Assembly (NCBI RefSeq): GCF_000282595.1 | Contig: NZ_AKIZ01000001.1 | Coordinates: 62,001-126,000, forward strand | Direction of reading: 5' to 3' | DNA length: 64,000 bases | Source of the DNA: Phyllobacterium sp. YR531 | GTDB taxonomy: Bacteria; Pseudomonadota; Alphaproteobacteria; Rhizobiales; Rhizobiaceae | Shown here: in pieces, positions 1 through 18,997 of the stretch | Position numbering within the stretch: position 1 is the first letter of the stretch | Layout: each line of letters opens with the position of its first letter | Notes under the pieces: model-generated | The model's database searches: none | The model's input: only the letters and a program-made list of their open reading frames with translations | Told to the model about the DNA's origin: nothing | Made by a program: the position numbers and the translations under genes

Positions 1-1062
1 GCCCGGACAGGGGCAACGGGGGCAGGGGAGGGCGGTGAGGCCTTTGGCTTCTCGCTGGCACCGCTTGTGGTACGGGCGGGGGAGTTCGAAACCATGGCGG
101 AAGCGGTGCGTTCGGAGCGCCTGCAGCTGAAACTGATGAAGGAACGGGTGACGCTTTTGCGCCGTGACATCGTCAAGCTGATCGAGCTTGGCTTTGAGGA
201 GATGCCTCATATCGACTGGAACGGGCACTACAGGGCGTTTCGCAGCGTGATTGATGATATTCCCCGTCAGGCGACGATCCGCGATCTGGAGCCGGTTGTG
301 GACGGGCTTGAATGCATCCAGCTGGAGATCTCCAAGCTATTGCAGAATAAGCTGAATTTACAACAAACAAGCGCCAGAGAGTCTCATTCTGAGCGCCACA
401 AACAAAATTCAAATACCAAATCCACTTCTGATCTTGAACATCGCTTTCGAACAAACCAAGGGCGAAATGCTGAGCACAACCGGAACGATGATCCACTGGC
501 GGAAACGCCCGGTAGCCAAACAACAATGGGGTGTGCTGAGAACCCGCATGAAGCAGGAGAGGCGGGCGATGCTGACAGTGCAGCTGGACGAGAGCCTGGT
601 ATGCCCGGCGTGGCTGGTTTGGACGATCCATCGGATCTGCGCACCGGCCTGCGCAGCCGCAGTCTTGATCTGGCAGCGCTTGGTGCCTCTGCCACAGCCT
701 TTGATGCCAAACCCGTTCCGCTCGGTCTTGTCCGCCAAGCCTGTCCCGATATATCAGCCTATGCCAGGAATGGCCTTGCCAGCTGGTCCGAACTGATGGG
801 CGCGGCCATTGTCGTACGTTCCATGCTCGGTGTCAGTCCTTCGGCCTATGAGGAAGCCTGCTCCGTGCTTGGCCAGGAAAACGCAGCCATTGCCATGGCC
901 TGCATCCTGCAAAGAACCGATCAGATCAATTCCGCCGGAGGCTATCTCCGATCGCTCACCGACAAGGCGGCAAAAGGCGAATTTTCCGTTTGGCCCATGC
1001 TCCTTGCCCAACTCAGGGCCAATGGTGAGCACGTCAGGCTGGTCGAGGGAAGGGCAAAATGA
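1..1062 (+). CDS. repC: plasmid replication initiator RepC, 5'-truncated by window edge
   Basis: RepC binds the origin inside its own gene and starts replication of repABC plasmids and secondary chromosomes. The frame is open from base 1, so the N-terminal DNA-binding half lies outside the window. Visible are the mid-protein segment beginning FGFSLAPLVVRAGEF, an ERVTLLRRDIVKLIE helix, a polar linker (about residues 115-205 of the visible part) and the conserved C-terminal domain with SWSELMGAAIVVRSMLG and GYLRSLTDKAAKGEF. An internal GTG at 67 is not the true start. repA and repB should lie just upstream. It identifies the replicon type; family assignment is firm. Confidence 0.93.
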   Translation, partial: ARTGATGAGEGGEAFGFSLAPLVVRAGEFETMAEAVRSERLQLKLMKERVTLLRRDIVKLIELGFEEMPHIDWNGHYRAFRSVIDDIPRQATIRDLEPVVDGLECIQLEISKLLQNKLNLQQTSARESHSERHKQNSNTKSTSDLEHRFRTNQGRNAEHNRNDDPLAETPGSQTTMGCAENPHEAGEAGDADSAAGREPGMPGVAGLDDPSDLRTGLRSRSLDLAALGASATAFDAKPVPLGLVRQACPDISAYARNGLASWSELMGAAIVVRSMLGVSPSAYEEACSVLGQENAAIAMACILQRTDQINSAGGYLRSLTDKAAKGEFSVWPMLLAQLRANGEHVRLVEGRAK

Positions 1063-4311: not shown

Positions 4312-6006
4312 TTATCTGCGGCGCCGGCGAGCAAGGCGGGCTTTCGCGACGATCGAGGTCAAGCTCACCGTTAGCTCGATGCTCTCAGTGTGGTCTATGC
4401 AGTCCTTGATCAATCGTCCCAGCGTTGCGTCATCAAAGCCCGACGAGATTATCAGGTCAGTCGCCTGATCGAGACCGGGAAATTCCGATTGCCGTATAGA
4501 AGGACCAGCATCAACCGAACGTCGGTCGTCGGACGCGCTCCTCATCTCATCAAAAGCAAAACGGTTTTGTCGTCCATCCGCGTCATCACGATGGCCGGCC
4601 CGCGTGCTGATTCGTGGCTGGCCAGGCAATTGATCTTCACCTATCAGAGCGGTGTTCTCGACACGCCGCTTTGCGAGGACAGTTTGACCAAACGGTAATT
4701 CAAACCATTGCCAGATTGCGTTCCCGGATTGATACTCCCGACTACGCGGGACAATCGGACCAAGTCCGGCAAGCGCCAATCCGCCATTGAAACGCACCAC
4801 AGCATCTGACTGGCTGGTCGGTGGCTCCCACGAGGAAACATCCGGATAGGCAAATGTCGCTTGATCCTGTCCGAGGCTAACGCGCGCCAGCCTTCGTGCT
4901 TCCGCCTCGATATACGGACGATCCTGAATTTCCCACGTCGGCTCGCTGTCAGAAATTGCCCCAAGAAGAGCACCGGCCATGGTCGCGATCGTATCGGTAT
5001 CGCTGTCCAACTCATTTGCGGAGATGATCAGGGCATCCTCGATCGACTGTTTAGCGTAAAGCTCCGAAAGCGCGAGAGCAGCAAGCGCAGTCTTAAAACC
5101 AGAGCCCCTGAACTTATCGGACAGGCATCCGATGCGTTCGAGAAGCTGCGGATAACTCTGCCCGTTTCCGGCGGCGATAATTTCTTCCGCGGCCTGGATA
5201 TCTGCTAGGGCATCGGCCTGAAATCCCCGGATGGCCTCGGGGAAGAGCCTCTTGGTTTCTCGTTCCCAGGACGGAAGCCAGAACTGTGCCAGTTCATCGT
5301 CCTTCGCTACGATCAAGGGCAGGTTATCCAGGAAAGAAATAAACTCACGGGCACGCTTCATTGAAGGAATTGACCGCACCGCAAGGGTGTCCCAAAGGCA
5401 CAGCGCATGAAATATCGCGCCGCAGAAGCCATGTGGGTGACCGTGGGTGACGATGGCATCCCGAAAGACCTGTCCGACTGTCTCGGGCAGTGGCCCTGTG
5501 GCTCCCCAAACATGAGGCTGAACGCGCATCGCTGCGCCGTTTCCACCCCCATTGACGTAGGACTGTCGGTCGCTTCTGAAGAAGTTGGAGAACCAGTTTA
5601 TACCTCTCTTCGACAGGTTGGCCGCCGCCGCCTTTGATCCGAGGCCGGCGCCAAGAGCGTACCCCTGCCAGGCAGTAACCTCGATCTTGGCGAATGTCTC
5701 GACATCAAAAGTCCCGTTGCCCCTGATCGAGCGCGACACGCCGAGACGCAACTGCGTGTCGTCGGAGTAGGTTCCGGCGGGCAAGTCAACCCGTACTCCC
5801 CCCCGGCCGCCGATAGTCCGTTGCCAATCGACGGGGGCCGTGATGCGCCCCTTGCCGGTCCGATACCGGACACCGTCCTGACCGCGGGAAAGTTCCGTGA
5901 TCCAGCCGAGCGCATCGCCAGCCGCCGCCCAGAGCGATGAATTCACGATTGCCCGCTCATAGTCGTCGTTCCGATAGGCGGCGTTGAGGTTCGACCCTTT
6001 GATCAT
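4312..6006 (-). CDS. ADP-ribosylglycohydrolase (DraG/ARH family)
   Basis: A DraG/ARH-fold enzyme expected to remove ADP-ribose from a modified macromolecule using a di-metal centre. Family motifs are visible: AAAGDALGW near residue 27, YSDDTQLRLG near 85, GGGNGAAMR, and the metal-binding ELDSDTDTIATMAGALLG near 335. The C-terminal extension of about 180 residues has no recognised motif. The start is ATG 6006, preceded by GGAAGG; a TTG at 6012 that overlaps the stop of the upstream ADP-ribosyltransferase is possible. Direct coupling to a DarT-like toxin suggests it is the reversing enzyme, or antitoxin, of that toxin. That role is inferred. Confidence 0.88.
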   Translation of the reverse strand: MIKGSNLNAAYRNDDYERAIVNSSLWAAAGDALGWITELSRGQDGVRYRTGKGRITAPVDWQRTIGGRGGVRVDLPAGTYSDDTQLRLGVSRSIRGNGTFDVETFAKIEVTAWQGYALGAGLGSKAAAANLSKRGINWFSNFFRSDRQSYVNGGGNGAAMRVQPHVWGATGPLPETVGQVFRDAIVTHGHPHGFCGAIFHALCLWDTLAVRSIPSMKRAREFISFLDNLPLIVAKDDELAQFWLPSWERETKRLFPEAIRGFQADALADIQAAEEIIAAGNGQSYPQLLERIGCLSDKFRGSGFKTALAALALSELYAKQSIEDALIISANELDSDTDTIATMAGALLGAISDSEPTWEIQDRPYIEAEARRLARVSLGQDQATFAYPDVSSWEPPTSQSDAVVRFNGGLALAGLGPIVPRSREYQSGNAIWQWFELPFGQTVLAKRRVENTALIGEDQLPGQPRISTRAGHRDDADGRQNRFAFDEMRSASDDRRSVDAGPSIRQSEFPGLDQATDLIISSGFDDATLGRLIKDCIDHTESIELTVSLTSIVAKARLARRRRR

Positions 6007-6008
6007 GT

Positions 6009-6683
6009 TCAATTCTGCCTTCCTATAAACTTCTGCATGCCTACCACGACTTTGACATTCTCGTACCCGTAGTCAGAAAGCCACCCAACGACCGTATCAT
6101 GGTACTCACCTTCCTCCACATAGACTGTCCGCAGATAGTCAAGGCTCAGCTTCTCGGGATAAAGGACTTCAGCCTGTTCGCAGGTCGGCAAATGGTCGGG
6201 GCGGTTCGCCCGAAGCGCGTTCCACGGTCGACCATCGATGCCAAACCGCTTGCGTGAGATCTTTTGCGCAAACAGGGCGTCGAAGCCGGCGGTTCCCTTG
6301 GCGCGTGTGCAGGCATCATAGCCGTTGTTTGTGGTCGTGAACCAGACACCGTCATGCTCGATGAGCTCGGGATCAAAGGAAAGAATGCACCACCAGATAT
6401 CGTGCGGATGCCATCTGCGCGAGACATCGAGAAAGCGGCGGTTCACCTCAGAAACCGTCAGGTTCACGAACCGCAGCCAGTCCTGTGATTTGTCGAAAAA
6501 GGCCGACTCCTCCGGTCTAACCGCCGCGTTGAGTTGCAGGACATGGCGTAAATAATTGTCTTCGCCAAGGAGCGGTCTCGACAGAAGATGTCTGCTGTGT
6601 AGACTGCCAAGCAAGCCGCGGTTCGTCGTAAAGTGGATGACCTCTGAAATGCCACGGTCCGATATGCGTTGAGCGAGCGTCAC
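6009..6683 (-). CDS. DarT-like (DUF4433) ADP-ribosyltransferase
   Basis: A 224-residue protein of the DarT/DUF4433 family. Characterised members ADP-ribosylate single-stranded DNA using NAD+ and are toxic. The N-terminal ISEVIHFTTNRGLLGSL matches the family's H-F-T..N NAD-binding start, and the likely catalytic Glu lies in EQAEVLYPEK (about residue 172), paralleling QAEALVHKHLP in the darT at 17292. GTG at 6683 is chosen because it overlaps the upstream helicase stop as GTGA and has AGGAG about ten bases ahead. It is the middle gene of a coupled three-gene unit. DNA as target is inferred from family. Confidence 0.78.
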   Translation of the reverse strand: MTLAQRISDRGISEVIHFTTNRGLLGSLHSRHLLSRPLLGEDNYLRHVLQLNAAVRPEESAFFDKSQDWLRFVNLTVSEVNRRFLDVSRRWHPHDIWWCILSFDPELIEHDGVWFTTTNNGYDACTRAKGTAGFDALFAQKISRKRFGIDGRPWNALRANRPDHLPTCEQAEVLYPEKLSLDYLRTVYVEEGEYHDTVVGWLSDYGYENVKVVVGMQKFIGRQN

Positions 6684-8124
6684 AGGCGGATCTCCTGGAA
6701 CGTGCCCGACTGAAAGAATTCTGTCAGCCGCGATTGTTCGCCCGGTTTGTAACCGACAATGACGTGTTTTCTCGCTCGCGCGACCGCAACTGCCAGAAGC
6801 CTGCGCAAAACGCGAACCTGGTCGCTGGCCTCCTCGTCTCCATAAGCCGTGTTCTCCTGATTGAAACCCAGGATGATCACATGATCGAATTCGAGACCTT
6901 TCGCTGAGTGAAAGGTGCAGATTCCGACATTTGCCGGGCCTGTCGGCCAGTCTGGATTGCGCTGCATATCGACAAAGGGAATGCGCGCGTTTCCCAACTC
7001 CGCCTTGATTGTGTTGAACCAGTCCCCTCCTTGCGGTTTGAGAAAGGCAACAGAGTCGGTCTGAAGGTTGACGTGTCTGCGAATATAATCGATTGCCCAT
7101 GAAATCTGCTGGGAGTACTTTCCGGCGATGACCTGTGGCAAAGGACCATTCGTCGTGGCAGCTGAGAGGTCAGGAAGCACGCCATCGCTGTCGATGGTCA
7201 GGCCCTGCAAGATACCGGCCGAGAAGGCGGCGATTTGCCGGGTATTACGGTGGTTTTCCTGGAGACGGTGCGAACGGTTTGGGGCGATCGTTACCCCAGC
7301 CTCCGTCCAGGTGAAGCCACGTGCATAGATTCTCTGAGCTGTATCGATGACAAATGTGACGGCGTGGTCGCGGGCCAGATGATAATTGATAGCCCGTATT
7401 TCGTTTGCCGAGAAATCCTGACTCTCGTCGATAATGGCGATGTCGTATTCCAGACTGTCGATTTCGCGCTTCATCTTAAGCGCGAGAGAATTCCAGTCGA
7501 GCCAGTCGTTGCGCTGCATAAGTTCGAGATAGGGGTAAACGACCTCATCAAGTATCCGGCGGCGCAACGCTCCATCGACGCGGGGAAGCAGTCCTCGGCC
7601 GGTTCTCTCTCTCGTTACATATTCCTCGAGATCCTCTGGCTCAAACCTGCCAAGTAGGTAGTCGACTTCCTGTATCACATAGCTGGTATCCAAACCCGCG
7701 AACGCTCTTGCGAGCCGCGCGAGTTGGCTCTTTGCTTCAGTCTCATGGACCCTCGGTTCATTGAGCTTCTCCAGGGCCCATTTAGCGAATGTTCGGATTT
7801 CGATGTCATGGGGCTTGCTGCGCAATTGCGCATTTGCCAGGGCTCGAACGTAACCGGCCAGCGTCCTGTTGAACGTCAGCAGAAGGATACGAACGGCGGA
7901 GTTGTCATTCAATCGGTCCTTCCGAGCTCGCATCATGCTGGCAAGTGAGGACAATCGAAGCAACGCCGTTGTCGTCTTGCCACTACCGGCAGCGCCGCGG
8001 ATCAGTTCGGCGCCGGTTCGATTCGTGCTGATAATCGCGAGCTGTTCTGAGGATGGCGTGATCCGTCCAAGATGTTACATTGTTTTTTGGGCCCCCCGAC
8101 CTTCTTTGAAGTGCTTATATCCAT
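6680..8124 (-). CDS. UvrD/REP-like SF1 helicase, frameshifted near its 5' end
   Basis: Superfamily 1 DNA helicase. Motif I (GAAGSGKTTT, about 8000), II (IIDESQDFS), III-like (VIDTAQRIYARG), IV (LQENHRNTRQIAAF), V (CTFHSAKGLEFDHVII) and VI (LLAVAVARARKHVIVGYK) are all present. The frame carrying motif I has a TAA just upstream and no standard start. An ATG at 8124 opens another frame (MDISTSKKVGG to NILD) that would join RITPSSEQLAII if one base were restored near 8064. So the gene either carries a one-base deletion or the read is wrong there. It is first in the unit with the DarT-like and glycohydrolase genes, suggesting DNA transactions as context. Confidence 0.8.
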
Positions 8125-8523: not shown

Positions 8524-9114
8524 TCATTGGCCCAGTCCTTCGTTGATCGCATTGACAAAATCGTCGAGTGACGGCGTTGTTGACTGCCCCGTTTTATCGG
8601 TGAGCCGAACACGAAGAGCTCGGGTAATCTCGAACTGCACGCCCATTCCTAGTTTTGCGCGGTTACAGATGTTTTTTTCGGCAGTCCCCTGCAATGCTGG
8701 ATTCTTGTGGGTCCTGACCGAGAAGCCTCTTTTCGAAAGTGCTTTTGCGATGCTTGCCACCAGTTTCTCGTGTCTTCCACCGAGATAGATGACCTCATCA
8801 TCGCCTTCGCAGCCATGCATCGCCAGCGCAACATCACTACTTTCAACGATTGCTATCGCCTGCGGCTCATTGAAGTTTGCAGATGTCACATGAAGATCGC
8901 GATTGCCCTTCGGTTTCCGACCCTCGAACAGGTAGTAGCTGAGATGAGAGCCTGCCACTGCTCGGGCTAAATCAGACGTTCCCAGCTCAATCTTTCCGCC
9001 ATGGGGAGCGAGCACGCAGATACTGGAATTCCGTTTTTCTGCCTCGATGCGGAAAGCGCTTGCATCTTCGGACGCGGCCAGTTCGTCAAAATTCCCGTAG
9101 CGATCGCAACGCAT
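8524..9114 (-). CDS. poly-gamma-glutamate hydrolase family protein (PF05908/DUF867)
   Basis: About 196 residues related to the phage and bacterial poly-gamma-glutamate hydrolase family, zinc peptidases with a carboxypeptidase-like fold. Family features are CVLAPHGGKIELGTSDLA, LHVTSANFNEPQA, SSDVALAMHGCEGDDEVIYLGG and NICNRAKLGMGVQFEITRALR; the His residues in APHGG and MHG are probable metal ligands. ATG 9114 is preferred because GGAG lies upstream; ATG 9129 and TTG 9144 are also open. It is transcribed away from the 9213 operon, sharing the 9145-9212 intergenic region. In this setting it may be phage-derived or defence cargo; its true substrate is unknown. Confidence 0.75.
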   Translation of the reverse strand: MRCDRYGNFDELAASEDASAFRIEAEKRNSSICVLAPHGGKIELGTSDLARAVAGSHLSYYLFEGRKPKGNRDLHVTSANFNEPQAIAIVESSDVALAMHGCEGDDEVIYLGGRHEKLVASIAKALSKRGFSVRTHKNPALQGTAEKNICNRAKLGMGVQFEITRALRVRLTDKTGQSTTPSLDDFVNAINEGLGQ

Positions 9115-9162
9115 CTCATTCCGCTCCATATGCAAAGTGAACAATCAATCGGTGCGCGAATT

Positions 9163-9212: not shown

Positions 9213-9791
9213 ATGAGCGACGGTCCGCATAAAAGCTTGCCTCTACGCCACGGATACCAACGTGTCGCAGCATGGGCGTTCAAACCAGCATTTGGCATTC
9301 AACAGGTCAGCGACGCGGCTGAAGCTGCCCTCATGCGTGACGTCAGGCTTGAGGTCGATCCGGCTTTGAAGCAGCTTGTCACTATCGCTGATGGTTGGGA
9401 TCTTCTCACGCTGGCCTCTTCCGCAAATGAACAACTCGACCGTCTTCGCGTCGATCCCTCTGTACAGCCTTTGGCAGCAAGCGCCATCGAGGCGACGCAA
9501 ATGGCTATCTCGGAAGGATACGCCGGATTGGCTGCTCTAGAGAAGGGCTTGGCCGCGTCGCTCGGCGAGCGACTGGCCGCCGGCGCTCGCGCGATGGAAG
9601 AGCATTACCTTGTAAAAGCGGGTCCAGGCGCCTGCCAGCAAATGCGCCGACGACTGGGAGAAACCATAGGCCAGATGATTGCCGGCGGAACGTTCGACCG
9701 TATGGCGAGGTCAATACTTGGCGATCGCACCGTAAACGTGACTAGATCACCAATGGTGTACGACGGCATCGATCAGGGGCCTCCGCTATGA
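9213..9791 (+). CDS. hypothetical protein, first gene of QueC-like/ImmA-IrrE/PIN operon
   Basis: A 192-residue, mostly helical, alanine-rich soluble protein with no signal peptide or membrane segment. The family was not recognised. The ATG is preceded by AAGGAG and a strong promoter. The stop overlaps the start of the QueC-like gene (ATGA at 9788), so the two are translationally coupled. By position it resembles the small partner (QatB) that accompanies QueC-like proteins in Qat anti-phage systems, but I see no sequence match to QatB and do not call it that. It could be the substrate or partner of the downstream PP-loop enzyme. Confidence 0.7.
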   Translation: MSDGPHKSLPLRHGYQRVAAWAFKPAFGIQQVSDAAEAALMRDVRLEVDPALKQLVTIADGWDLLTLASSANEQLDRLRVDPSVQPLAASAIEATQMAISEGYAGLAALEKGLAASLGERLAAGARAMEEHYLVKAGPGACQQMRRRLGETIGQMIAGGTFDRMARSILGDRTVNVTRSPMVYDGIDQGPPL

Positions 9792-11170
9792 GCGAATCCC
9801 GATTGGCAATACCTTTGATCCGTGTTGCGGTTGTGGAGCCAGGAGCTAAAGCTAAAGCAGCAGAAGGATGGCGCACGGCTGAAATCGGAAAGGCAATCGT
9901 TTTCAAGACGGAAGACCTGAACGACTATAGGACGAAAAACTGGGATAGCCGCGTTTATGACGCTATGCTCCTCATCGCTGCGGTCGAATATTGCGACAAG
10001 GCTTTGAAACGGCCAGGGTTCGGCTGGGCACGCCGAATTGAGCTGCAACTGCCCGTTCATGATACGTCGCGCTGGCAAAACCCACGCGTGATGGAATGTG
10101 TTGCCACCGCGTTGAAGTTCTTGACGGGGGATGAGTGGAAGCTGACTTTCACCGCCGCCAAGGCCAGTGTCGACAGCAATCTAGGACAACAGAGCTTGTT
10201 CGAGTGGGGAGATCCTGGCCGAACGATTACGCCTTTTAGCGATGGCTTGGACTCACGTGCTGTCTCGGCAATTCTTGGCGCTCAAGGCCGCTTCGATAGG
10301 CTGATCAGGGTTCGTGTCGGCTCGAAAGCCGACGATCGGCCTGTCCACGATCGCAAGAAGGTACCGTTTCTGAATATACCGTTCTCCGTCAACATGAAGC
10401 CGATCGGGATCAAAGAGTCGTCGGTGCGAAGCCGTGGATTCAAATTTACGCTGTTGAGTGCGTTGGCCGCATATCTCGTCGGAACCCATGACGTCGCTAT
10501 GCCGGAAAGCGGACAAGGTGCATTGGGACCGACCCTTATTCCGACCAGCCACGGCTATGAAGACTACCGCAATCACCCACGCTTCCTCCGAAAGATGGAG
10601 GACGTGGTTGAAGCGCTATTCGATTGTCCGATCCATTTTCGATTGCCGCAACTGTGGAAGACGAAGGGGCAGACCCTGGCAGAGTTCGCTGCGATCGCAT
10701 TCGAGCCAGATGAGTGGAACAAGACCCGCTCCTGCTGGCAGCAGAGCAGAAATTCTTCATTCGATAAAACGCGCAGGCATTGCGGTATATGCGCAGCGTG
10801 TATGCTTCGCCGGCTCAGTTTCCATTCTGCCGGTATTAACGAGCCAAAAGAGAACTACATTTGGGAAAATCTGCGGTCCGACCGTTTTGAGGACGGAGTG
10901 GTCCCGGGCTTCACGAAAGTGACCCGGGCAATGCAACGATACGGGATAGCCGGAGCGTTGCATCTTGATCATCTCGCCGAAATGCGCTCTTCCCCCCTCC
11001 ACCGCTCTCGCTTAAAGCGACACGCTTGGCAATTGGCAGAGCAGCTCCGAATGACGACAACTGAGGCCGAGGAGAAACTTTCCGGCCTACTGGAACAGCA
11101 TGACAAAGAATGGAAGGCGTTTATGAAGGATCTCGGGCCGAAATCATTTGTTTCCCAATGGTTGGCGTGA
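9788..11170 (+). CDS. QueC-like PP-loop ATPase
   Basis: A 460-residue protein with an adenine-nucleotide alpha-hydrolase (PP-loop) core related to 7-cyano-7-deazaguanine synthase QueC. The PP-loop reads FSDGLDSRAVSAIL (about residue 150), a variant of SGGLDS with Asp for the second Gly. A zinc-binding cluster appears as RRHCGICAACMLRRLSF (about 331-347), matching the QueC-type Cys site. QueC itself is about 230 residues, so both ends are extended. It sits between an unknown protein and regulatory/toxin-like genes, not in a queuosine pathway, so a defence role of the QatC or Cap9 kind is more likely than tRNA modification. Substrate unknown. Confidence 0.8.
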   Translation: MSESRLAIPLIRVAVVEPGAKAKAAEGWRTAEIGKAIVFKTEDLNDYRTKNWDSRVYDAMLLIAAVEYCDKALKRPGFGWARRIELQLPVHDTSRWQNPRVMECVATALKFLTGDEWKLTFTAAKASVDSNLGQQSLFEWGDPGRTITPFSDGLDSRAVSAILGAQGRFDRLIRVRVGSKADDRPVHDRKKVPFLNIPFSVNMKPIGIKESSVRSRGFKFTLLSALAAYLVGTHDVAMPESGQGALGPTLIPTSHGYEDYRNHPRFLRKMEDVVEALFDCPIHFRLPQLWKTKGQTLAEFAAIAFEPDEWNKTRSCWQQSRNSSFDKTRRHCGICAACMLRRLSFHSAGINEPKENYIWENLRSDRFEDGVVPGFTKVTRAMQRYGIAGALHLDHLAEMRSSPLHRSRLKRHAWQLAEQLRMTTTEAEEKLSGLLEQHDKEWKAFMKDLGPKSFVSQWLA

Positions 11171-11174
11171 CCTC

Positions 11175-12359
11175 ATGAGCGAGAGTCACGAACAGCTTAA
11201 CCGGGACCAGATCGGCGAACGCCTGCGTATCGCCCGCGAAAACGCGGCGAAGACGCAGGCGGACGCGGCAGCGGTAATTGGTGCAGCGCGTACCACCCTC
11301 GTTGCAATGGAGAAGGGCGCACGGCGGGTCAGAATTGGCGAACTCCAACAACTCGCGCAATTCTACGGCACGAGCGTCAATGCGCTGCTGCGCAGAGAAG
11401 CCGTTCACGTCGAGCTCACGCCCAAGTTCCGCAAGCTCGCCGATCATGACGAACCGGCCGTCAACACGGCTGCGGAACTGATGGCCCAGCTCGTCCGTGC
11501 GGATGTCGAGCTGGAAACGCTGCTCGGTATCGCCCATGTCCGAAACTTTCCGCCCGAGCGCGCGATCCTGGCGGGGGATGTCCGCGAGCAGGCGGAGCAG
11601 CATGCGCTGGAGCTGCGTCATTGGCTGGGGCTCGGACTGGCGCCGGTATCTGACATTGGAGCCGTTCTGGAAATGCAGATGGGCGTTCGCCTCTATGTCC
11701 GCCGCCTGCCCGGAAAAATTTCCGGACTGTTCGCGTTCGAAGAGTCTGTCGGCGCTTGCATCCTGCTGAACGCGAACCATCCTCTGGATCGACGAACCCA
11801 GACGGCAGCCCACGAGCTTGGCCATCTGGTCTCGACGCGTATGCAGGCTGAAGTCAGTGAGATCGACGAACTGGAAAGCTCGCGAGTGGAAAAATATGCC
11901 AATGCATTTGCACGTGGATTTCTTACTCCAGCTCAGGCCGTCCGGCAGAAATTCGAAGAGGTAACCGCCGGCGCTTCCAGTTTGACGCGCCGCCACGTAA
12001 TTGTTCTCGCGCATTTCTTCCACGTTTCGCGGGAGGCGATGGTGCGAAGGCTCGAAGAGCTGCAACTGACCAAACGTGGCACCTGGGACTGGTTCCAGGC
12101 AAATGGAAACATCACCGATGATCATGTCCGGCAGGTCTTCGGGGACGTGGCCCAAAATGACCGAATGAAGGATGACGCGGTGTTGCCAGTCCCTATCAGG
12201 ACCGGCCTCATGGCCTACCAGGCAGCCAAACGGGGCCTTCTGAGCGAAGGCCAGATTTCGAGAATGCTGCGTCTCGACCGTGTCACGGTGCGAGACATCC
12301 TGATGGATATCGATGCCGAAGAAAGTGGGGCCAATGCGGCAACCTCAATTCTTCGGTAA
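11175..12359 (+). CDS. XRE-family HTH / ImmA-IrrE metallopeptidase fusion
   Basis: A 394-residue protein. Residues about 10-65 form an XRE helix-turn-helix (LRIARENAAKTQADAAAVIG, then TTLVAMEKGARRVRIGELQQ). The middle carries an ImmA/IrrE (DUF955) zinc metallopeptidase with HExxH in TAAHELGHLVSTR and a later Glu-rich ESSRVEKYANAFARGFL. In known systems such proteins cleave or sense a repressor upon a stress signal. ATG 11175 starts four bases after the QueC-like stop. The C-terminal part ends in another HTH-like segment (GQISRMLRLDRVTVRDIL). It probably regulates this operon, maybe through the palindrome at 9164, and may act as antitoxin to the overlapping PIN protein. Confidence 0.85.
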   Translation: MSESHEQLNRDQIGERLRIARENAAKTQADAAAVIGAARTTLVAMEKGARRVRIGELQQLAQFYGTSVNALLRREAVHVELTPKFRKLADHDEPAVNTAAELMAQLVRADVELETLLGIAHVRNFPPERAILAGDVREQAEQHALELRHWLGLGLAPVSDIGAVLEMQMGVRLYVRRLPGKISGLFAFEESVGACILLNANHPLDRRTQTAAHELGHLVSTRMQAEVSEIDELESSRVEKYANAFARGFLTPAQAVRQKFEEVTAGASSLTRRHVIVLAHFFHVSREAMVRRLEELQLTKRGTWDWFQANGNITDDHVRQVFGDVAQNDRMKDDAVLPVPIRTGLMAYQAAKRGLLSEGQISRMLRLDRVTVRDILMDIDAEESGANAATSILR

Positions 12360-12954
12360 AATCTCGGCCCCACTTGTAGTGGATTCGAGTGTGATCATCA
12401 ACTTGAACGCAACAGGCCGGGCCTCCGATATCGTTCGCGCATTCGATGTGACGCTCTGCGCGAGCACGGTCGTGCGGGATGAGCTTATGATTGACCGCTT
12501 CAACGGTAGGGACGACGCGGGCCTGGCGCGCGCACTGGCTGACGAACGACTTCTCGAATTCATCCCTTTCGATCATGACGGCGAGCTCATATTCGCCGGC
12601 CTTGTCAGCGGGCCTGCTGATCAGACGTTGGACGATGGTGAGGCTGCAACCCTCGCGCTCGGTGCGGTGCACGCTCGAACGGTCGTCATTGACGAACGCA
12701 AAGCGCTCAGGATTGCGGCGGATCGTTTTGCTGCGATGCAAGTGATTTCGACCGCCGATATCCTGTGTTCGGATCTAATTCTGTCTGCCTTTGGGCGTGA
12801 ACAAGTCGCCGACCTTGTATTCAACGGCCTTACCGGAGCCAGGATGGGCATTCCCGAGCGCCATCATGGTTTCGTTTCCGATTTACTCGGGCCACGAACT
12901 GCAGCCTGCCGAAGTCTTCCGGCGTCATTGCGTCCGATTGCCGGGAGCGAGTGA
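12313..12954 (+). CDS. PIN-domain protein (predicted ribonuclease)
   Basis: A 213-residue PIN-domain protein. The first acidic residue lies in PLVVDSSVIINL, and later acidic positions appear in TLDDGEAATLALG and TVVIDERKALRIA, the usual order for the PIN metal site. PIN proteins are often RNases and toxins. The gene overlaps the XRE-ImmA/IrrE gene by 47 bases at the ATG 12313 start (ATG 12334 is an alternative), indicating close coupling. Fused or adjacent XRE/ImmA-IrrE and PIN genes form toxin-antitoxin-like pairs elsewhere, so it is the probable effector of this operon. RNA target unknown. Confidence 0.8.
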   Translation: MPKKVGPMRQPQFFGKISAPLVVDSSVIINLNATGRASDIVRAFDVTLCASTVVRDELMIDRFNGRDDAGLARALADERLLEFIPFDHDGELIFAGLVSGPADQTLDDGEAATLALGAVHARTVVIDERKALRIAADRFAAMQVISTADILCSDLILSAFGREQVADLVFNGLTGARMGIPERHHGFVSDLLGPRTAACRSLPASLRPIAGSE

Positions 12955-17291: not shown

Positions 17292-17927
17292 ATGACAGAC
17301 GCTCTCCTGACCCGCGAAAAGGCACTCATTTTTCGAATAGTCCACAAGGACAATATCGGTCAGGTGCTCAAGAATGGATGCCATTGCAGAAGCACAGTGG
17401 CAGGTAAGGCGTCATATATAGAAATTGGAAATCAAGAGCTTATCGAAAAGCGGACGCAACGGGCCGTGCCTTGCGAACCAGGCGGGACTCTCAGCGATTA
17501 TGTACCGTTCTATTTTACCCCATTCACGCCGATGCTTTATAATATTAAGACTGGGTATGGCGTTCCAAAAAAACCGATCTCAGACATCGTAATTCTCGTC
17601 TCGTCGTTGCCGTATTTGCAGGAGCAAGATATTCAATTCGTTTTCAGCGATCGTCATGCGTATCTACGGACCGCGCAATTTTCGAACGATATTGATGATC
17701 TTGATCGAATTATATGGCCTGTACTCCAGGCACGAGACTTCAAAAAGGATGATGCGGATAAATTCGAAAAATACCAAGCTGAAGCTCTTGTGCACAAGCA
17801 CCTACCGGTCAGCGCCTTGAAAGGCATCGTGTGCTACAATACTGATACCAAGGATGAAGTCGCGGACCTTGCTGACAGGCACGACGCAAACGTGAAAATC
17901 ATCGCGCAGAAGAAATGGTTCCTATGA
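17292..17927 (+). CDS. darT: DarT ssDNA ADP-ribosyltransferase toxin
   Basis: A 211-residue DUF4433 toxin that, in characterised homologues, transfers ADP-ribose from NAD+ to single-stranded DNA and blocks replication. Family landmarks are ALIFRIVHKDNIGQVLKNG at the N-terminus, YVPFYFTPFTPMLYNI in the middle and FSDRHAYLRTAQFSNDI. The catalytic Glu is in YQAEALVHKHLP (about residue 164). The stop overlaps the darG start (ATGA), giving tight coupling of toxin and antitoxin. Codon and base composition are more AT-rich than the catabolic genes, consistent with acquisition as a mobile module. Confidence 0.93.
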   Translation: MTDALLTREKALIFRIVHKDNIGQVLKNGCHCRSTVAGKASYIEIGNQELIEKRTQRAVPCEPGGTLSDYVPFYFTPFTPMLYNIKTGYGVPKKPISDIVILVSSLPYLQEQDIQFVFSDRHAYLRTAQFSNDIDDLDRIIWPVLQARDFKKDDADKFEKYQAEALVHKHLPVSALKGIVCYNTDTKDEVADLADRHDANVKIIAQKKWFL

Positions 17928-18997
17928 TGATTACCTTTACACAAGGAAACCTTCTCGATTCAGATGCTGAGGCGCTCGTCAATACCGTGAATACGGTCGG
18001 TGTGATGGGTAAGGGCGTCGCCTTGATGTTCAAGGAGGCCTATCCGGAGAACTACAAGAGATACGAAGCCGCTTGCCGCGCGAAGGAAGTTCGCGTCGGA
18101 AAAATGTTTGTCACTCACAGAGATGCATTTATCGGACCGAAGTGGATAATCAATTTCCCCACTAAAGCGCACTGGCGGTATCCTTCAAAGATTGAATGGG
18201 TCGAGCAGGGCTTGGACGATCTGAAAGCAGTGGTCATAAGCAATCATATTCGCTCGATTGCTCTACCGCCACTGGGGGCAGGAAACGGAGGCCTCGAATG
18301 GGAGGAGGTACGCGAGCTCATTGTGAACAAGCTTAGCGAGCTCCCGGACGTGCAGGTCATCATATACGAGCCCACCAAGCAATATCAGAATGTCGCGAAG
18401 CGAACCGGAGTCGAGACTTTGACACCGCCGCGAGCATCGATTGCTGAGTTGGTACGCCGGTATTCGATATTGGGTATCGAATGTTCATTACTGGAGGTTC
18501 AGAAGCTCGGCTATTTCCTAGAACGGTTTAATCAAAAGCTTTCCTTGCCCAGTTTCGAATTTGAGTTCGCTGCTAACAAATATGGCCCATATTCGGACAA
18601 GCTAAAGCACATGCTCAACGGCCTGGATGGGAGTTACCTCCACTGTGACAAACGGCTGGCGGATGCGAGTCCATTCGAGCCAATCCGGTTCGATGAAGCA
18701 AAACGCGATCATGTCGAGTTATATCTGAGGACAGAAGGCAGGGATTACGTACCGGCAGTCGAAGCGACGTCAGCATTGATAGACGGTTTTGAGTCGCCAC
18801 TGGGAATGGAATTGCTGGCTACAGTCGACTGGCTTGTCGATAGAATGGAGACGGAACCTTCTGTCAGCGCGATCCGTGCAAAGTTGGCTGACTGGCCAGG
18901 CGGGAAAGAGTCTGCGGATCGCAAACTGCGCCTATTTGAGGATCGTATTATCAGTATCGCGTTGGATTCTTTACGTGAATCCCCCCTTATTTCATGA
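17924..18997 (+). CDS. darG: DarG macrodomain antitoxin
   Basis: A 357-residue antitoxin. The N-terminal macrodomain (about 1-155) removes ADP-ribose from DNA; visible motifs are TQGNLLDSDAEALVNTVNTV, GVMGKGVALMFKEAYP and LPPLGAGNGGLEW. The C-terminal part (about 175-357, from LVRRYSILGIECSLLEVQKL) matches the DarG region that binds and blocks DarT. ATG 17924 is chosen because it overlaps the darT stop. Full length and without visible lesion, so the pair is probably active; roles follow the well-studied DarTG systems. Confidence 0.93.
   Translation: MMITFTQGNLLDSDAEALVNTVNTVGVMGKGVALMFKEAYPENYKRYEAACRAKEVRVGKMFVTHRDAFIGPKWIINFPTKAHWRYPSKIEWVEQGLDDLKAVVISNHIRSIALPPLGAGNGGLEWEEVRELIVNKLSELPDVQVIIYEPTKQYQNVAKRTGVETLTPPRASIAELVRRYSILGIECSLLEVQKLGYFLERFNQKLSLPSFEFEFAANKYGPYSDKLKHMLNGLDGSYLHCDKRLADASPFEPIRFDEAKRDHVELYLRTEGRDYVPAVEATSALIDGFESPLGMELLATVDWLVDRMETEPSVSAIRAKLADWPGGKESADRKLRLFEDRIISIALDSLRESPLIS

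Follow-up and report, generated by a model that had tools for sequence, protein, structure and literature searches.

A three-gene cassette on the 64,000-nucleotide stretch of Phyllobacterium sp. YR531 contig NZ_AKIZ01000001.1 analysed here (the window) has the appearance of a phage-defence system not described before, in which the DarT toxin family would gain a third type of antidote. It encodes a UvrD-like helicase of superfamily 1 (SF1), a DarT-family ADP-ribosyltransferase and an ADP-ribosylglycohydrolase of the ARH/DraG fold (ARH), and constitutes a new class within the known DarT kind. Conserved linkage and gene order, complete catalytic motifs, a DarT1-like fold and defence-rich neighbourhoods carry this proposal. 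Its functional side, with DarT modifying a DNA base, the ARH erasing the adduct and the helicase directing the attack in phage defence, has in our view a slight balance of probability in its favour. What defines a DarT system is its antitoxin, which is NADAR in the case of DarT1 and a macrodomain in that of DarT2; an ARH with a linked helicase would mean that a third, unrelated eraser has been recruited to the same chemistry, in a DarT module with a built-in DNA motor.

With a profile of four DarTs we recovered 43 loci (designated here by L numbers) in the genome collection, a number that is a lower bound because the profile scan works via short peptide patterns. Helicase, DarT and ARH follow each other in this order on one strand in 41 of them; the exceptions are L047, which starts inside DarT, and L048, which ends behind DarT and in which DarT is also interrupted. 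In each of the 42 loci with a contig long enough to include it, the helicase gene is there; two of these copies, L019 and L041, are damaged, as is the one in the window. Going by record titles, the 43 loci are distributed over Pseudomonadota, Actinomycetota, Acidobacteriota, Thermodesulfobacteriota and Chloroflexota, plus one short metagenome contig labelled Bacteroidota. A 4-base overlap of helicase and DarT genes was seen in 28 of the 47 loci for which both genes were tabulated (starts chosen by script). The same cassette was found in four plasmid records identified via DarT. Plasmids searched with the ARH gave eight records, in all of which DarT adjoins the ARH and in seven of which the helicase is present too. 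The eighth, a Nostoc sp. C052 plasmid (L058, 3296-6320), encodes a 531-residue DarT protein and an ARH directly before BREX pglZ and brxL, with no match to the helicase model within the 11 kb stretch. On viral contigs, the cassette was present in all three loci seeded with DarT, and 14 loci seeded with the ARH included four full cassettes (three of them on the contigs also found with DarT) and one cut at the contig end. The remaining nine viral ARHs are short (L136-L144, on contigs of 38-447 kb) and have no DarT or helicase match in the stretch examined; they could be phage antidotes to ADP-ribosylating defence.

Linkage of the three families elsewhere, which the original prediction had proposed to look for, is thus conserved far beyond chance, both in the 43-locus scan and in the reverse seeding from the ARH. 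Pairwise distances of the three proteins correlate at 0.85-0.88 (32 loci), a level reached by none of 2000 permutations; nearest neighbours differ among the three genes in 15 of the 32 loci, so that some exchange or noise remains. Within the class, PF14487 was detected in 13 of 289 genomes. The 15 matches correspond to 14 genes, since one gene was matched in two pieces; 11 of the genes have macrodomain DarG as partner (the pair in the window among them), one has NADAR, and two belong to the cassette. A gene-order search matched 3 of 297 genomes: the window's own, G151 with a DarT1-NADAR pair, and G242, which is probably the same locus as Pelagibacterium L014. When 349 genomes of the phylum were searched for the ARH (at most four candidates scored per genome), only the window copy was full-length, with 753.5 bits versus 32.1 for the next, which indicates that the cassette is rare. 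It is, in sum, broadly spread though rare.

In the window, helicase, DarT and ARH genes are arranged head to tail on the minus strand, from about 8068 to 4312 (Table 1), and are joined by two 4-base overlaps, GTGA at 6683-6680 (helicase/DarT) and TTGA at 6012-6009 (DarT/ARH). The original prediction had described three leftward genes ending at 4312, joined by these overlaps; Pfam matches agree with all three family calls, and both overlaps are read directly in the sequence. The helicase start had been placed at 8124, which is ruled out: the ATG there is off the helicase frame, and its own frame stops after 40 codons. Relatives point to the ATG at 8080-8078, which directly precedes a TAA (8077-8075) where L003, L006 (Mesorhizobium) and L007 have a sense codon. 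The first in-frame ATG, GTG or TTG is found at 7963, and a start there would drop the Walker A motif. Since a TAA follows the ATG matched to the relatives, the helicase gene of this strain is probably broken at codon 2 or started non-canonically. With this correction the observation of the three-gene set is confirmed, and the interpretation attached to it is supported and largely right, antitoxin role, target and helicase role being its presumptive parts.

The window DarT belongs to the DarT superfamily, with 51.1 bits versus a curated PF14487 cut-off of 22.5. The earlier assignment as DUF4433/DarT-like therefore stands, and can be refined to DarT1-like: the active site comprises H17-F18-T19, R56, N81, N119, Q170 and E172, the fold is nearer to DarT1 than to DarT2, a serine replaces the tyrosine of the H-Y-E motif, and the base-holding N104 is kept. 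Active-site residues and fold rule out the thymidine type (DarT2) despite the word "thymidine" in the database name of relatives. In the alignment of the core cassette DarTs, the position of the catalytic E152 is E in 36 of 36 rows and that of R52 is R in 35 of 36 (window included), whereas the H-Y-E tyrosine position is S or T in all 36 core rows and Y in all nine DarT2 rows. In a tree built by a quick method, the 36 core DarTs are set off by a branch with a support of 99 and the nine DarT2s by another (100). On the core's side there are also two DarT1s, the BREX-linked DarT and four divergent DarTs from cassettes; open forks there do not settle whether the BREX-linked and divergent ones group with the core or with DarT1. 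This suggests that the active site of some genes annotated as thymidine-specific DarT is of the DarT1 type, so that their name may be wrong.

For the third protein, the predicted DraG/ARH-fold partner in place of a macrodomain or NADAR is borne out by sequence, fold and active-site residues. E40, D84, D85, D338 and D340 are conserved, in keeping with the catalytic and metal residues of the ARH/DraG family. The ARH fold (residues ~9-380) is followed by a strand-rich part (~400-450), a low-confidence linker (473-508) and a C-terminal helical part (~510-566). For the C-terminal extension there was no Pfam match below 0.05 in five members; the ARH domain took up the structural comparison, which hardly touched this part.

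The helicase is a member of SF1/UvrD (Pfam UvrD_C, E = 3.2e-12; UvrD-helicase, E = 8.4e-10), with scores of 39.2 versus a cut-off of 23 for the N domain and 47 versus 25.6 for the C domain. Its ATPase motifs are complete in the alignment: the Walker A, DExQD, NxRN, KGLE and RAR columns are invariant in 33 of 33 rows, except for one R replaced by K in three. The closest solved structure is HelD (E = 5.1e-22), followed by PcrA/UvrD. The helicase family is wider than the cassette, as four loci examined among 52 records with helicase relatives show other settings: these plasmid helicases (L059-L062) are 25-30% identical to that of the cassette and have other large helicases or unknown genes as neighbours, in three of the four a very large DEAD/DEAH helicase gene directly adjoining. 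Their neighbourhoods are possibly another defence system.

Repeated co-occurrence in defence islands, the further prediction made from the window alone, was found as well. The flanks of 35 cassette loci yielded 239 open frames (simple longest-frame rule; at least 150 residues for the cassette flanks), among which PADLOC matched 69 families in a batch of 108 proteins and 85 in one of 131 (E <= 1e-15). The control consisted of arbitrary genome stretches from the window's phylum (12 of 18 stretches, 119 of 166 open frames) and gave 11 families. Families rather than proteins are counted here, a single protein being matched by several models, and only one phylum is represented in the control. The scan was made on loci other than L018, L020, L030, L035, L041, L047 and L048, and L012 gave no open frame. 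Among the first 25 families listed per batch were Dpd, BREX, DISARM, PsyrT, Hma, AbiLi, Mokosh and RmrA models; in the control, an RtcR model was strongest, others including QatD, mad3, BrxHI and DpdF. Eight large flanking proteins were also examined singly, and at 1e-20 BrxC (L025), HmaC (L039) and MkoC (L042) were matched. In a Pfam scan of the batch of 108 flank proteins, phage integrase was commonest (3 members). Near copies of the cassette occur in 21 of 5,426 complete E. coli genomes, all chromosomal and, among the 15 matches listed, with 94% DNA identity to the L017 copy. In the three E. coli copies examined, all three genes are full and annotated and lie on the same element behind an integrase at ychF; the 21 copies may go back to one acquisition. 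In E. coli AR_0128 (L145), RADAR rdrB is located about 13 kb off, with a second integrase gene between, and a large P-loop NTPase gene adjoins the cassette.

According to our proposal, the DarT1-like enzyme would transfer ADP-ribose from NAD+ to a base (possibly guanine) of single-stranded DNA, blocking replication. The ARH would strip off the adduct and shield the host, acting as the antitoxin in the role of NADAR (DarT1) or the macrodomain (DarT2). The helicase, as sensor or loader, would engage abnormal replication or recombination intermediates, e.g. those of phages, and hand single-stranded DNA to DarT, the invading DNA being modified faster than the ARH clears it. A more far-reaching version, for which we see a somewhat less than even chance, is a third DarT class with helicase-gated DNA-base ADP-ribosylation: the ARH would provide the first example of this fold removing ADP-ribose from DNA bases, the helicase would pick foreign replicating DNA, and the balance of writing and erasing would separate self from non-self. 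To our knowledge, ARH-fold enzymes have until now been known mainly from protein and phosphate-end adducts. The cassette offers a concrete route to asking how DNA-modifying defence separates phage from self, and the near copies in E. coli make it open to testing in that organism.

Damaged copies bear on the roles of the partners. The helicase is damaged in the window (stop at codon 2), L019 (internal stop) and L041 (frameshift), DarT and ARH being apparently intact, and DarT is damaged in L016 (frameshift) and L048. In L053 the ARH is frameshifted at about residue 355 (window numbering) next to intact DarT and helicase genes; it lies past the last active-site motif (338-341), with about 25 residues of the ARH fold still to come. 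Among the copies seen, none combines an intact DarT with an ARH lacking active-site motifs, although the L053 ARH may not fold. This pattern agrees, though only weakly, with an ARH that serves as antidote and a helicase that is not needed for protection.

A number of points weigh against a DNA-directed defence of this kind. The guanine-reading residues K74/Y75 of DarT1 are absent from the core, 34 of 36 rows having S or A at position 75; this makes guanine uncertain as the target even though N104 is retained. An acidic residue stands in the column of DarT1 D54 in no more than 12 of the 36 core rows; the R-x-[DE] pattern, present in 32 of 36, is a looser match. The window DarT is matched by the PADLOC DarT model only at E = 4.2e-4 and by no NCBIfam model. 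According to PMC9503650, the ARG/ARH enzymes that have been characterised have proteins as substrates. PMC11833690 names macrodomain and NADAR as the antitoxins of DarT that reverse DNA ADP-ribosylation and describes an ARH-like enzyme as inactive on guanosine-ADP-ribose RNA, so that a new specificity would be required of the cassette ARH. In this particular strain, the DarT-ARH pair persists although its helicase may be non-functional. The L053 copy retains its DarT beside a frameshifted ARH, and the broken copies behind this argument are small in number and come in part from draft or metagenome sequence. Finally, five of the eight large flanking proteins had no PADLOC match at 1e-20, and the flank comparison has the limits given above.

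Among the alternatives, the one that survives best, though we consider it rather unlikely, makes the helicase a repair partner on the antidote side, clearing stalled forks or unwinding modified DNA so that the ARH reaches the adduct. The helicase does match UvrD, PcrA and HelD, and UvrD/PcrA/Rep/HelD relatives work at stalled replication or transcription. The DarTG lesion is reportedly reversed by RecF-mediated recombination and nucleotide excision repair (title of PMC7003065). If the helicase protected the host, however, its damage next to apparently intact DarT and ARH genes (window, L019, L041) would be dangerous.

It is unlikely that the DarT-like enzyme modifies a protein, such as the helicase itself or, on an arginine, a replication or transcription factor, and that the ARH reverses this, as in DraT-DraG and in effector-immunity pairs of an ADP-ribosyltransferase (ART) with an ARH. 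The latter (PDB 6drh, 8za7; NF041672 Tri1), judged by their entry titles, resemble the cassette in pairing an ARH-fold hydrolase with an ADP-ribosyltransferase toxin; the cassette differs in its DarT1-like transferase with a nucleic-acid base pocket, in the roughly 185 residues added at the C terminus of the ARH and in the helicase of the operon, and scores 25.8 versus a cut-off of 490 for NF041672. With DraT-DraG it shares the ARH/DraG fold and the same kind of catalytic and metal residues, but the target of DraG is nitrogenase reductase, and with 37.7 versus a TIGR02662 cut-off of 337.05 the cassette ARH falls outside the DraG equivalog.

Equally unlikely is a selfish module of toxin and antitoxin whose effect is to keep plasmids and islands stable, without a real anti-phage role. 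Such a module would be in line with the cassettes on plasmids, the E. coli integrase element beside ychF, Tn7-like genes in a Streptomyces plasmid and a RepC gene on the window contig. Yet a two-gene pair would suffice for addiction, whereas the helicase accompanies it in all 42 loci reaching that far, and the flanks hold more defence models than the control. Chance adjacency or an annotation artefact, in favour of which nothing was found, is ruled out by 41 of 43 loci from at least five phyla keeping order and strand and by the agreement of reverse seeding.

The proposed DarT-ARH-helicase system can be set apart from those described. From DarTG1 it differs in that the gene next to DarT encodes an ARH (PF03747) and not NADAR, and in the additional helicase; conversely, in the DarT1-NADAR loci L078 and L079 (10.1 and 12.7 kb), neither the ARH model nor the helicase model found a match at E 0.01. 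With DarTG2 it has in common a toxin gene of the DarT superfamily beside an ADP-ribosyl hydrolase gene, but its DarT lacks the H-Y-E tyrosine (S/T) and forms a separate clade, and the macrodomain is replaced by the unrelated ARH fold. Gabija (GajAB) likewise has a UvrD-like helicase in a defence setting, and the PADLOC GajB models match the window helicase; Gabija is ruled out in the window, where the neighbours of the helicase gene are DarT and a PF05908 gene, not GajA. The ARG-centred systems of PMC9503650 also have an ARH/ARG domain in predicted conflict systems, but were chosen for the absence of a linked transferase, which the cassette has. Among the literature matches listed, with preprints and most subscription papers outside the coverage, there was no paper on DarT with ARH and helicase.

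Table 1. Features of the cassette and its surroundings in the window.
Feature	Position	Strand	Remarks
SF1 UvrD-like helicase	8068-6680 (open frame, 462 residues)	-	relatives start a few residues further upstream
Helicase start ATG, position-homologous to relatives, then TAA	8080-8075	-	from comparison with relatives
DarT-family ADP-ribosyltransferase	6683-6009 (224 aa)	-	PF14487, E = 1.9e-13; GTG start overlaps helicase stop
ADP-ribosylglycohydrolase (ARH/DraG fold)	6012-4312 (566 aa)	-	PF03747, E = 3.8e-31, residues 29-353
RepC C-terminal region	67-1062	+	contig may be a repABC replicon
Poly-gamma-glutamate hydrolase-like gene adjoining the cassette	8524-9144	-	PF05908, E = 1e-58; without PADLOC match
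Unknown gene overlapping a QatC-like gene	9213-11170	+	no Pfam match in the unknown gene
Helix-turn-helix (HTH) + M78 peptidase gene (RmrA/ImmA-like), then gene with weak PDC-S70 matches	11148-12954	+	beside the QatC-like gene
Canonical DarT2-macrodomain DarG pair, complete	17292-18997	+	PF14487, E = 1.7e-54; Macro, E = 1.6e-21

Two further plasmids illustrate the company the cassette keeps. On the Streptomyces tsukubensis plasmid pST1 (L005), it lies beside TnsA-like, transposase, ATP-binding and TniQ genes of a Tn7-like element. On a Rhodococcus sp. WAY2 plasmid (L056), the 6 kb after a divergent cassette contain a HigA/RelE pair as well as multiubiquitin, ThiF and Abi family genes. In the window itself, the QatC-like gene matched NF041925 at E = 2.9e-36, below the cut-off. 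The DarT2-DarG pair is located about 9 kb from the cassette, and both DarT types are thus present on one contig.
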